Source: Collimonas fungivorans Ter331 (GTDB lineage Bacteria > Pseudomonadota > Gammaproteobacteria > Burkholderiales > Burkholderiaceae_D). Taken from it: a stretch of DNA of 64,000 nt. Position numbers and translations under genes: made by a program. This document shows, one piece after another, positions 38,632 through 41,830 of the stretch; within the stretch, counting starts at the first letter, position 1; every line of letters begins with the position of its first letter. A model generated the notes under the pieces. That model was not told the DNA's origin. It searched no databases and was given only the letters and a program-made list of their open reading frames with translations. The DNA lies in contig NC_015856.1 of the NCBI RefSeq assembly GCF_000221045.1, positions 4,883,424 to 4,947,423 of the forward strand, written 5' to 3'.

Positions 38632-38800
38632 CATTGCCGCACACCAACGTACCGATTCGCAATTTTCCAACACCTGTCGCATTTACCCTGCATCGCCAAT
38701 ATCTTTGGTATACCATTGCCGACCAATTTTTCATTTGTGAGGCATGGAATGTTAAACCTAGATTCGGCAGTTGACCGCTCACATAAATTTAGGAATTCCC
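38632..38800 (+). other. Leader region upstream of uORF and hsp70-like gene
   Basis: A 169-base intergenic stretch before the small upstream ORF. It holds an AT-rich palindrome GGTATACC (38707-38714) whose centre resembles a -10 box, without a good -35. No known riboswitch or sigma32 motif is seen. Confidence 0.35.
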
Positions 38801-38938
38801 ATGCGTGCTGAGCTTCTTTCGCTCGGTAGCCTCCACCTGTTTGATGAGAGCGCTACAGGTGCGATTGCACACTTTTCCGGCCCTCTGCCGTCGTTGCTTC
38901 TCCTAGCGGAATGTAGTCCGCGTCGTCGTCGCGCCTAG
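38801..38938 (+). CDS. Putative 45-residue leader peptide upstream of hsp70-like gene
   Basis: A short ORF with an ATG preceded by TAGGAA at a spacing of about six bases. The peptide is 45 residues long, Leu-rich in the middle (PSLLLLAE), and ends SPRRRRA. Its stop lies 16 bases before the hsp70-like start. The 5' arm of a strong hairpin that masks the hsp70-like ribosome binding site falls within codons 25-29 of this ORF, so its translation must affect the downstream gene. I do not recognise the peptide; it could be a stalling leader or merely a coupling ORF. Confidence 0.5.
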   Translation: MRAELLSLGSLHLFDESATGAIAHFSGPLPSLLLLAECSPRRRRA

Positions 38939-38954
38939 CCAGAGGACCGGAAAA
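38873..38954 (+). promoter_or_regulatory. Hairpin sequestering the RBS of the hsp70-like gene
   Basis: TTTTCCGGCCCTCTG (38873-38887) pairs with CAGAGGACCGGAAAA (38940-38954) in 14 of 15 positions, the one mismatch being C/A. The 3' arm contains the GAGGA ribosome binding site and ends directly at the ATG at 38955. The 52-base loop has a small inner hairpin (GCGGA-atgtag-TCCGC). The 5' arm lies in the leader ORF. This looks like a translation attenuator. Confidence 0.65.
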
Positions 38955-40238
38955 ATGTACACTCACACCAGTTCAACTACCGAATCCAGGTTCAATGCTT
39001 GCGGCGTGGATTTCGGCACGTCCAATTCCACGGTTGGCTGGAGCAGGCCCGGACAAAACGCCTTGCTGCCGCTGGAAGACGGCAAAGTCACTTTGCCGTC
39101 GGTGGTGTTCTTTAACGCGGAAGACGACGCTTTCAGTTTCGGCCGCGCCGCCCTGAGCGCTTACCTGGCCGGTTACGAGGGGCGCCTGATGCGTTCCCTG
39201 AAGAGCTTGCTCGGCTCCAGCCTGATCGATGCCCAGACCGAGGTCGGTGGCCGTGCGCTGCCGTTCCGCGCCCTGCTGACCCATTTCATCGCCGAACTGA
39301 AAATCCGCGCCGAACTCGCGGCCGGCAAGGAATTCCAGAGCGTGGTGCTGGGCCGCCCGGTGTTTTTTGTCGACGACAACCCGGCCGCCGACCAGCGCGC
39401 CGAAGATACGCTGGCGGACATCGCCCGTTCGGTCGGCTTCCAGCACATCGCTTTCCAGTACGAACCTATCGCCGCCGCGTTCGACTATGAATCCAGCATC
39501 GAACGCGAAGAGCTGGTGCTGATCGCCGACATCGGCGGCGGCACTTCCGACTTTTCGCTGGTGCGCCTGTCGCCGCAGCGCGCCGCCAGCAGCGAACGGC
39601 GCGACGATATCCTGGCGACCGGCGGCGTGCACATCGGCGGCACCGATTTCGATAAATACCTGAGCTTGTCGAGCGTGATGCCGATGCTGGGACTGGGCAG
39701 CCGCCTGGTGAACAACAGCGAAGTGCCGTCCAGCTATTATTTCAACCTGGCGACCTGGCACACCATCAACCAGATTTACACGCGCAAGGCCTGGCTGCAG
39801 TTGAAAGACGTGCAGCGCGAAACCGTCGAACGCGAAAAATTCAGTCGCCTGCTGGACCTGGTCGAACAGCGCGCCGGACACTGGCTGGCCTTGCAGGTGG
39901 AACAAGGCAAGATCGGTTTGTCCGACGCCGAAACGGTGCAGCTCAGCCTCGACCGCATCGCTCCCGGCCAGGCCTTGAGCCTGACGCGCCAGCAGTTCAA
40001 CGACAGCATCGGGCATCTGGTCGGCACAGTGGAAGACACCGTCGGCAACCTGCTGCGCGATGCTGGCGTGACGCCGGCGCAAGTCGATACGGTATTTTTT
40101 ACCGGCGGCTCCAGCGGCGTGCAGCTGCTGCGCCACAAGATCGCCGCACTGGTGCCGTCGGCAAAGGCCGTCGAAGGAGATTTGTTCGGCAGCATCGGCG
40201 CCGGCCTGGCGCTGGATGCGGTACGCAAGTTCGGCTGA
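38955..40238 (+). CDS. Hsp70-like chaperone (YegD family)
   Basis: Hsp70-family ATPase of 427 residues, lacking a substrate-binding domain of normal size. The nucleotide-binding signatures are clear: GVDFGTSNSTVGW (15-27), IADIGGGTSDFS and FFTGGSSGVQLL. Without the usual C-terminal peptide-binding domain it belongs to the YegD type, of unknown client range. Its start directly follows the hairpin at 38940-38954 and the leader ORF. It ends two bases before the convergent stop of the CLC gene. Confidence 0.85.
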   Translation: MYTHTSSTTESRFNACGVDFGTSNSTVGWSRPGQNALLPLEDGKVTLPSVVFFNAEDDAFSFGRAALSAYLAGYEGRLMRSLKSLLGSSLIDAQTEVGGRALPFRALLTHFIAELKIRAELAAGKEFQSVVLGRPVFFVDDNPAADQRAEDTLADIARSVGFQHIAFQYEPIAAAFDYESSIEREELVLIADIGGGTSDFSLVRLSPQRAASSERRDDILATGGVHIGGTDFDKYLSLSSVMPMLGLGSRLVNNSEVPSSYYFNLATWHTINQIYTRKAWLQLKDVQRETVEREKFSRLLDLVEQRAGHWLALQVEQGKIGLSDAETVQLSLDRIAPGQALSLTRQQFNDSIGHLVGTVEDTVGNLLRDAGVTPAQVDTVFFTGGSSGVQLLRHKIAALVPSAKAVEGDLFGSIGAGLALDAVRKFG

Positions 40239-40240
40239 TT

Positions 40241-41500
40241 CTATCCAATCCCGCTATCGGTTTTATCCGTCTTGCCGCCGCGCTTGCCATGGCCTATCCG
40301 CTGCGCATGATAAATCCCGGTATGGCCGGAAAACAGATAGCTGACGACGCAGGCAATGCCTGCCAGCACGCCGATTTCCGGCCCGAACAATTCGATCGCC
40401 ATGATGGTCGACGCAATCGGGGTATTGGCAGCGCCGGCGAATACCGCCACGAATCCCAGCCCTGCCAGCACTGGAATCGGCATCGCCAATAACTGCGCCA
40501 GGGCGTTGCCCAGCGTAGCGCCGATATAGAACAGCGGCGTCACTTCCCCGCCCTTGAAACCGGAAGCCAGGGTCACCACCGTGAAAACGATCTTGCCGGC
40601 AAAGTCATACAGCGGCAGCGGTTTCTCGAAAGCCTCGACGATGGTCGGAATCCCCAGCCCCAGGTATTTGTCCGTGCCCGGCAGCAAAGCCAGCAACAGC
40701 ACCGCCACGCCGCCGACGAACGGCCGCAGCGGCGGGAATTTGACGAGGCACTTGACCAGGCGCGACAAACCGTGGGTCGCTTGCGCGAACACCATGCCGA
40801 CCAGGCCGAACACGATGCCGGCCGCCAGCGTCGCGGCGAAGATCCCGATGCTGAAATGGGGCACGAGGGGAATCGCATAATGGGTATGGTGCACCCCCAG
40901 CAAAGCCGGCACCTGGTCGCTGATGATGGCGGCGATGAAGCAAGGCAGGATGGCGTCGTAGCGCAGGCGGCCGATGGCCAGCACTTCCAGTCCGAACACG
41001 GCGCCGGCCAGCGGCGTGCCGAACACCGAAGCAAAACCGGCGCTGATGCCGGCCATCAGCAGGATGCGCCGCTCGTCCGGCCCCAGCCGGCCGATGCGGG
41101 TGACCATGTCGGCCAGGGCGCCGCCCATCTGTACCGCCGTGCCTTCACGGCCGGCGGAACCGCCGAACAGATGGGTGATCACGGTGCCCAGCAAGATCAG
41201 CGGCGCCATGCGCTTGGGCACGATGCGCTGCGGATCGTGGATTTCATCGATCAGCAGGTTGTTGCCGCCTTCCACCGATTTGCCCAGCAGGTGGTAAATC
41301 AGCCCCACCGCAAACCCCGCCAGCGGCAGCAGCCACAACAGCCAGCGATGGGCGTTGCGGGTATCCGTGGCCCATTCCAGCGACAGCAGCAGCACCGCCG
41401 ACGCCAGGCCGGCCAGGGCGCCGACCACGGAAGCCAATATCAGCCAGCGCGCGAGATACACCAGCATCAGCAGCTGTTCAGGGTATTTTGTATTTTTCAT
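40241..41500 (-). CDS. CLC-F-type fluoride/proton antiporter (ClC family)
   Basis: Polytopic CLC protein of 419 residues. The usual GSGIP, GREGP and GxFxP motifs are changed to GGNNLL, GREGT and GGEVTP, which is the pattern of CLC-F fluoride exporters rather than chloride transporters. The gene is preceded on the same strand by a fluoride-riboswitch-like aptamer at 41580-41665, which agrees with fluoride detoxification. The start is the ATG at 41500. Other annotations would call it a voltage-gated chloride channel. Confidence 0.9.
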   Translation of the reverse strand: MKNTKYPEQLLMLVYLARWLILASVVGALAGLASAVLLLSLEWATDTRNAHRWLLWLLPLAGFAVGLIYHLLGKSVEGGNNLLIDEIHDPQRIVPKRMAPLILLGTVITHLFGGSAGREGTAVQMGGALADMVTRIGRLGPDERRILLMAGISAGFASVFGTPLAGAVFGLEVLAIGRLRYDAILPCFIAAIISDQVPALLGVHHTHYAIPLVPHFSIGIFAATLAAGIVFGLVGMVFAQATHGLSRLVKCLVKFPPLRPFVGGVAVLLLALLPGTDKYLGLGIPTIVEAFEKPLPLYDFAGKIVFTVVTLASGFKGGEVTPLFYIGATLGNALAQLLAMPIPVLAGLGFVAVFAGAANTPIASTIMAIELFGPEIGVLAGIACVVSYLFSGHTGIYHAQRIGHGKRGGKTDKTDSGIG

Positions 41501-41556: not shown

Positions 41557-41587
41557 GCCTACAAATCCCGTCCAGGAACTTGTAGGC
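41557..41587 (-). promoter_or_regulatory. Riboswitch expression-platform hairpin
   Basis: GCCTACAA on the minus strand at the 3' end of the aptamer (41580-41587) is repeated as an inverted copy, TTGTAGGC, 15 bases later (41557-41564). The resulting hairpin competes with the aptamer for the same strand. It is not followed by a T-run, so it could act on translation or on Rho rather than as an intrinsic terminator. Confidence 0.55.
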
Positions 41588-41665
41588 ATCATCAGCTGCG
41601 TCTGGCCGGCGAACCCGCAAGGATTCAAGGCCAGAAGCGGCGGTTCAGGGAGGAATGCCATCTCC
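41580..41665 (-). promoter_or_regulatory. Fluoride riboswitch (crcB motif)
   Basis: On the minus strand the conserved blocks of the fluoride aptamer occur in order: GGAGATGGCATTCCTCC, then AACCGCC, a variable hairpin around CTGGCC...GGCCAG, and GCTGATGATGCCTAC. The first stem and the GGCAT/ATGCC pairing of the aptamer are both complete. It lies 80 bases upstream of the CLC-F start and should switch the gene on when fluoride is bound. Confidence 0.88.
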
Positions 41666-41670
41666 GAAGC

Positions 41671-41830
41671 GTGTAGTGTTTCGTAAGTAATGGAGCTTCA
41701 GAAATGGTGGATTTTGGTGCCAGGCTAGGCGCAAACCGGAGCGATAGTGGAACTATCGCGAGGATTTGCAACGACGCATGGCGCGAAAATACGCTGTTTA
41801 TGGAGCTTCATTATTTGCGAAATACTACAC
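41671..41830. repeat. 160-bp imperfect palindromic element (MITE/REP-like)
   Basis: The outer ends GTGTAGTGTTTCG (41671-41683) and CGAAATACTACAC (41818-41830) are inverted copies with one difference. Inward, TAATGGAGCTTCAG matches ATGGAGCTTCATTA inverted, ATTTTGG...GCC matches GGCGCGAAAAT, and the centre is GCGATAG-tggaa-CTATCGC. The whole unit folds into one long hairpin. No ORF or transposase is present, and no target duplication is obvious. It ends only 6 bases before the riboswitch and so covers its probable promoter region. Confidence 0.7.

Follow-up and report, generated by a model that had tools for sequence, protein, structure and literature searches.

A 234-bp MITE-like element inserted just after the start codon of an Hsp70-like gene in Collimonas, from a family in excess at start codons

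Introduction

Translational attenuators of the erm type combine a leader ORF with a stem over the SD of the downstream gene. Among insertion sequences, the IS1380 family is defined by tips starting with CCTAG and a short AT-rich target. In the account of PMC10969869, Correia elements lie predominantly just upstream of genes, and Rickettsia palindromic elements (RPEs) are mobile palindromes, roughly half of them inserted into genomic ORFs, whose own ORF fuses in frame with unrelated genes. The left repeat of ISEcp1, a member of the IS1380 family, is given as CCTAGATTCTACGT (PMC7864471).

Here we analyze the start of an Hsp70-like gene of Collimonas fungivorans Ter331 in a window of 64,000 nucleotides (the whole stretch of DNA that was analyzed: NC_015856.1, positions 4,883,424 to 4,947,423, forward strand; coordinates below are those of the window). 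A first-pass annotation had described this start as a translational attenuator, with a leader ORF and a hairpin masking the ribosome binding site of the gene. We identify instead a 234-bp MITE-like insertion just after the start codon of the gene in one Collimonas lineage, recognized by the ends of the element, by orthologs lacking it in 13 of 14 genomes and by a fold that is conserved and covaries. Very probably, an accidental insertion gave the gene its 5' region and its start ATG at 38955, and the family of the element is enriched at start codons.

Results

Direct reading of the window confirmed the layout that had been described. The leader ORF starts at ATG 38801, has 45 codons and ends 16 nt before ATG 38955 with TAG at 38936-38938; its own ribosome binding site is AGGA at 38791-38794, six bases before 38801. 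The 15-base pairing is also present, TTTTCCGGCCCTCTG (38873-38887, codons 25-29) pairing with CAGAGGACCGGAAAA (38940-38954) at 14 of 15 positions, with C-A at 38881/38946 as the sole mismatch, and it sits within a 33-nt inverted repeat (38855-38887 / 38940-38972, 82% complementary). A further inverted repeat of 23 nt (38752-38774 / 38973-38995) lies outside the coordinates considered previously and had been missed; this outer repeat marks the whole layout as an insertion, and the leader ORF, the hairpin and ATG 38955 all fall within its 234 bp at 38757-38990. The features of the locus are the following:

38737-38751, + strand: former start region of the Hsp70-like gene, from which it is now severed, with SD-like GTGAGG (38737-38742) and original ATG (38749-38751); direct reading, and the same or a very similar sequence directly 5' of the gene in orthologs
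38749-38811, + strand: 20-codon ORF from the original ATG into the element, out of frame with the gene, with stop TGA at 38809-38811; the end of ORF 38716-38811
38752-38756, + strand: left flank TTAAA, taken to be one copy of an altered 5-bp target duplication; 11 of 13 element-free relatives read ATG-TCAAA at the empty site, junction alignments
38757-38990, + strand: 234-bp MITE-like element; several matches at other sites span exactly positions 6-239 of the query 38752-38995, and the covariance-model match covers 38757-38990
38757-38774, + strand: left terminal inverted repeat CCTAGATTCGGCAGTTGA; 16 of 18 positions pair with 38973-38990, covarying between copies
38801-38938, + strand: leader ORF of the first-pass annotation, 45 codons and stop, entirely in the element; no clear codon-position bias, no Pfam or NCBIfam match
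38855-38887, + strand: 5' arm of the long stem, including the previously described arm 38873-38887; inverted repeat, covariation
38906-38921, + strand: apical hairpin GCGGA / TCCGC (38906-38910 with 38917-38921); 98% of cells paired, both-side changes in 5 of 5 pairs
38940-38972, + strand: 3' arm of the long stem, containing SD-like AGAGGA (38941-38946) and ATG (38955-38957); direct reading, inverted repeat, covariation, fold prediction
38973-38990, + strand: right terminal inverted repeat TCAACTACCGAATCCAGG; pairing with the left repeat
38991-38995, + strand: right flank TTCAA, presumed 5-bp target duplication (changed); ortholog DNA, junctions
38955-40238, + strand: Hsp70-like (YegD-like) gene with predicted element-encoded N-terminus MYTHTSSTTESR replacing the original MS; HSP70 and PRK11678 matches, orthologs aligning from residue 8-15

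The start of the orthologous gene was found to be element-free in 13 of the 14 other genomes of the genus; the fourteenth (G010) gave a partial, diverged match, and the element-free pattern was not found there. TCAAA follows the ATG in 11 of these 13 genomes. The DNA of the nearest orthologs at the start reads ...GTGAGGCATGGAATGTCAAATGCTTGCGGCGTGGATTTC, and the window at the same start has the element between ATG-TTAAA and TTCAA-TGCTTGCGG (junctions were aligned for four of the element-free genomes). The two window flanks differ from each other at one base and from the TCAAA of the relatives at one or two; because they are unequal and unlike TCAAA, the target duplication here is presumed rather than exact. 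The genome carries only one full-length copy. The attenuator arrangement had been attributed to the Hsp70-like gene itself, with conservation of the ORF or the paired arms in close relatives as the proposed check; at the orthologous start, both the leader and the hairpin are missing from 13 of the 14 genomes, close to the result that had been named as refuting the attribution. A gene-specific attenuator is rejected on these grounds: the layout arrived with a mobile element and was not built for Hsp70 control.

The element displays the traits of a MITE, namely, terminal inverted repeats, short length, no transposase gene, a 5-bp target duplication and copies at unrelated sites. A DNA search gave hits in 40 of 294 genomes of the bacterial family, that of the window included, many of the hits covering only part of the element, and a covariance-model search found matches in 201 of 392 genomes, many over the core stem only; the latter search scored no more than five candidates per genome, so that copy numbers are lower bounds. 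The tip pattern was detected in 95 genome stretches, and in 19 of 80 loci examined, the tips span exactly 234 bp. Among 300 genomes of the order, the exact-tip pattern retrieved the window copy only. Plasmids contained no match for the window element; two records carry a relative (one record by protein search). For the analyses of flanks and start sites, we used the best 100 of the full-length matches listed, which come from 41 genomes. The same tips also bound shorter elements of 163-176 bp (L077, L091, L106, L109, L119, and L131), for example in Verrucomicrobia, Limisphaerales and Gammaproteobacteria, and three copies (L373, L384, and L389) are 321-322 bp long, with an extra segment of about 88 bp inside the element.

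Among the 99 copies with scorable flanks, the 5-bp flanks are identical in 44 and differ by one mismatch in 35, and the right flank is ATNAT or TTNAA in 78. An empty site could be read at aceK, where GTGAT occurs once in 11 element-free genomes and ATGAT once in a twelfth, and two genomes have ATGAT-element-ATGAT, the 5-bp duplication covering the inferred start codon. In these two aceK copies (L306 and L329), both flanks carry ATG; for 11 of the 12 element-free genomes, the native start was inferred to be GTG. At another locus (L163), the flanks are off the empty site by one or two bases and no exact duplication is readable; for L179, an element-free version was found with a target region too variable to read. 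Given the unequal flanks at the window locus and at L163, plain exact duplication fails to explain either. Hairpin-templated correction is a possible cause of the altered flanks that fits the window locus but not L163.

No partner transposase with the same tips was recognized around the 80 tip-bearing loci. Long spans between tips contain ordinary genes, and about a dozen recurring or long ORFs near tips, judged by eye from their sequences, were read as response regulators, acyl-CoA ligases, a LysE-like protein and off-frame readings. A PF13701 transposase gene between the tips of the element was found at none of the 30 PF13701 loci examined, among the matches listed; the PF13701 copies carry tips other than those of the element. 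A literature search, largely at the level of abstracts and thus not proof of absence in print, found no description of the 234-bp element.

The fold was analyzed in an almost gap-free alignment of 30 copies, selected from 50 collected elements as being exactly 234 nt long and in register. Over 18 terminal, 33 stem and 5 apical pairs, 83.6% of cells are paired, compared to 27-37% in slid registers and 67.0% in shuffles, and the covariation score (0.372 vs 0.115 in shuffles) was reached in 0 of 500 shuffles; both-side changes occur in 42 of 56 pairs, counts that are not independent events because the copies are related. Further pair types are not unusual in the full fold (215 of 500 shuffles as high). 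In the terminal repeats, 92.6% of cells over the 30 copies are paired. The 15-bp helix has 76.2% of cells paired in the same copies (31-41% slid, 49.2% in shuffles) and a covariation score of 0.506 vs 0.130, with two of five measures unremarkable: 396 of 500 shuffles have at least as many further pair types, and 19 of 500 at least its 13 both-side changes. The folding energy of the window hairpin is modestly better than that of shuffles (z -1.73, 11 of 200 as good). Compensatory changes in both arms, which the first-pass annotation had proposed to look for, are therefore present, though across element copies at unrelated sites, so that the fold is real but belongs to the element.

Co-evolution of DNA ends or templated correction could give the same covariation signal in the tips. 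Accordingly, arm covariation might reflect DNA processes (hairpin-templated correction, or ends co-evolving with a transposase) rather than selection on an RNA fold, a reading that we take seriously and consider slightly disfavored. The terminal repeats change together at the same positions, and the departures of the window flanks from TCAAA improve pairing (4 of 5 vs 2 of 5), although those of the L163 flanks do not. What speaks for the RNA fold is that covariation extends beyond the tips to the 33-bp stem and the apical hairpin, and that the apical module keeps its sequence as well as its shape. This module, approximately CGTTGC..TCCT.GC-hairpin-CGCGCCT(A/T)GCC (within 38855-38972 in the window), recurs with unrelated arms in palindromes of the same genome (L420-L423, L425, and L426), of which L422, L423 and L426 are about 160 bp long and have ends resembling TAGTGT.GTG.TTCG. 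A known RNA family was rejected as the identity of the element: Rfam gave no match at gathering score over it and, at E values up to 10, a single chance-level match (12.9 bits, E 8.3). In an Rfam scan of 20 other loci, an SAH riboswitch (L164) and sX9 (L104) were found, both outside the elements.

The leader ORF does not behave as a conserved coding sequence. In the codon-position test, which used 29 of the 30 aligned copies, differences at positions 1, 2 and 3 were 0.258, 0.297 and 0.310 (11 copies) and 0.243, 0.333 and 0.323 (18 copies); position 2 is more variable than position 1 and near or above position 3, unlike in a typical constrained protein. Over element positions 99-179, position 3 is the most variable in both sets and position 2 nearly as variable; weak constraint may act on this part of the ORF. 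The frame of the ORF is stop-free over element positions 19-216 in 14 of 18 copies of one set, and two further frames lack stops in 11 and 13 of the same 18. Start codon and frame vary between element copies, several Oxalobacteraceae copies having an in-frame stop beyond element position 45, the start of the window ORF. The window ORF had no match in Pfam or NCBIfam; the ORFs of six other copies had none in Pfam and, in NCBIfam, only two chance-level matches, both for one copy. With variable start and frame, no family and no clear codon bias, a conserved small protein is not supported as the identity of the leader.

Taken together, these observations make it very improbable that the locus is an evolved translational attenuator in which the leader senses a signal and stalling opens the hairpin, turning the Hsp70-like gene on. 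An ORF with its own SD, a stop 16 nt before the ATG and a conserved hairpin over the next SD, with predicted access to that SD rising from 0.17 to 0.33 once the 5' arm is open, are what such a device would have. It is, however, absent from the orthologs in 13 of 14 genomes, its leader has no clear coding constraint and no conserved start or frame, and the same element precedes unrelated genes. Leader and hairpin, being features of the element, became the 5' region of this gene by accident.

The identification of the gene from 38955 as Hsp70-like was upheld: it matches HSP70 (87.8 bits), and among NCBIfam models it scores best against PRK11678, molecular chaperone (269.9 bits, short of the cut-off of 331), which we take to be YegD. 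Within the genus, orthologs align with the protein from residue 8-15 onward and not before; the frame runs uninterrupted for 427 codons, and identity to the protein of G004 is 99% over residues 13-427. A fluoride riboswitch (41576-41674, - strand, 44.2 bits) lies ahead of the neighboring ORF 40241-41500 (- strand), which resembles a ClC-type channel.

ATG 38955 is in frame with the gene, and AGAGGA ends eight bases before it. Given that translation from the native SD and ATG would now enter the element and end after 20 codons, at 38811, the element ATG at 38955 is probably the new start of the Hsp70-like gene, and translation from it would place a chimeric N-terminus on the protein. Initiation is probably weakened, as AGAGGA lies in the base of the element stem; in the fold prediction, its mean unpaired probability is 0.168, increasing to 0.327 when the 5' arm 38873-38887 is held open. 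Masking of the ribosome binding site by the hairpin thus stands as a real, conserved structure with predicted reduction of SD access, but not as a device of the gene itself. Likewise, a ribosome on the upstream ORF could open the stem over AGAGGA and aid initiation, as had been suggested for the leader, but as a by-product only. An element start with its SD partly hidden in a stem is possibly an accidental, down-regulating fusion.

An unlikely though conceivable outcome is silencing, with ATG 38955 insufficiently strong or accessible and the gene decaying into a pseudogene. The insertion has split the native SD and ATG from the gene, leaving them with the 20-codon ORF, the SD of the element is mostly paired in the prediction, and there is no native ATG on the right side at the window locus. 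Yet the frame has remained intact over its 427 codons, with near-identity to the G004 protein, and ATG 38955 is in frame and has an SD at suitable spacing.

Statistically, start codons harbor more copies of the family in sense orientation than expected. The right (sense) end lies within two codons of an ATG that opens a frame of 80 codons or more in 26 of the 100 full-length copies (19 genomes), and the left end in 8 of 100, counts that are not fully independent because the copies share ancestry. Orthologous duplicates among them are L306/L329, L309/L312, L333/L358 and L373/L384, each representing the same gene in two genomes of one genus. With the stricter criterion of an additional upstream in-frame stop within 25 codons, for which 95 of the 100 copies were used (five have short flanks), the counts are 18 on the right and 5 on the left vs 2.74 expected from matched 5-mers, a rough expectation as it derives from one 64-kb stretch of one genome. 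The right-left difference is significant (18 vs 5, two-sided p 0.011; 15 vs 5 after collapsing three orthologous pairs); the left-side count is not significantly above expectation (5 vs 2.7, p 0.14). The looser count of 26 compares with 11.9 expected, a value this high because internal ATGs are also counted. The window copy is outside the 26 because it lies after its ATG.

The proteins encoded at 20 of the 26 right-side starts were scanned, leaving out L317, L327 and four orthologous duplicates. Of the 20, 16 received an NCBIfam name at E 1e-5 or better, namely, TssF, AceK, YbbP-like permease, HAD type II, ThiE, AlkB, UbiB (twice), FolB, LpxD, TatB, MacB-like, Ogt-like, PadF/PorD-like, PmbA and hydroxyisourate hydrolase; some of the 16 are below the model cut-off, in part because the sequence ended at the fetched flank. 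The best match begins within the first 14 residues, near the profile start, in 13 of the 16, and that of PmbA has residue 19 at profile position 20. The MacB-like (profile position 257) and Ogt-like (residue 37 or later) matches are uninformative on the start. The match of hydroxyisourate hydrolase (L315) runs from residue 14, two after the second Met, and its true start may be downstream. The ubiB start carries the element in two genomes of different genera (L330 and L382).

An SD-like GAGG, AAGG or GGGG is present in the right terminal repeat, ahead of the flank, in 39 of 100 copies at other sites, and start-site copies have such a tip more frequently (16 of 26 vs 23 of 74 others, Fisher p 0.0096); shared tip types within clades may account for part of this association. 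Start-site copies have an ATG at the position of 38955 no more often than the rest (14 of 26 vs 40 of 74 others).

The excess could result from targeting or from survival of tolerated insertions, and we keep both as candidate causes. The chances seem to us evenly balanced that targeting is not involved, such that the element prefers ATNAT or TTNAA, these sites are frequent at starts and insertions within genes are lost. The right-flank preference (78 of 99), the non-significant left-side count and the looser expectation of 11.9 against 26 are in line with this explanation; the 18 right-side copies against a matched-5-mer expectation of 2.7 are not, and tolerance alone predicts equal counts on the left and right, yet 18 and 5 were found. 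A more far-reaching scheme, which appears rather improbable, is a mobile cassette that inserts in sense orientation at start codons, duplicates the ATG, severs the native ribosome binding site and supplies a new one, either from the terminal repeat (GAGG or AAGG, base-paired to the left repeat and some eight bases 5' of the duplicated ATG) or from the internal stem. Unrelated housekeeping genes would thereby come under one translational control, the sense bias could reflect insertion guided by transcription, by translation or via an RNA intermediate, and the apical module would be the recognition site of a common protein.

Discussion

A supposed gene-specific attenuator becomes a case of a mobile element taking over the start of a gene, and the start-codon excess of its family, which suggests repeated takeover at conserved genes such as aceK, ubiB, tatB, folB, lpxD, tssF and pmbA, is the result worth following. 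If expression is maintained at these sites, the elements rewire translation initiation and add N-terminal residues or change start codons, with promoters uninvolved. Gene starts beside such repeats may be mis-annotated, and leader-plus-hairpin layouts call for comparison with orthologs before regulators are named.

In comparison with known systems, the locus shares a leader ORF and a stem over the SD with erm-type attenuators, the stem over the SD being predicted only for the window; here, however, the leader is not conserved, the structure is part of a mobile element and no inducer is known. The start of CCTAG and the short AT-rich target of IS1380 elements are found, whereas the transposase of that family between identical tips is not. 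ISEcp1 tips begin with CCTAG, and its left repeat, in the form in which PMC7864471 gives it, shares the first nine bases with the window element; the PF13701 element L203, from the same bacterial family, has the tip CCTAGCCCGGATATTTCATGA, with similar tips in L204 and L213. With RPEs, the present element has in common that it is a mobile palindrome whose ORF joins unrelated genes in frame; unlike them, it has its junction at the start codon, touching the initiation region. It resembles bacterial MITEs (the Correia element, ERIC, TIMEs and MITEAba12), which are likewise short, without a transposase gene, and have terminal inverted repeats, target duplication and folding transcripts; it differs from them in its near-fixed length of 234 bp, its covarying 33-bp stem with a conserved apical module, its sense excess at start codons and the SD-like motif that many copies have in their terminal repeat.
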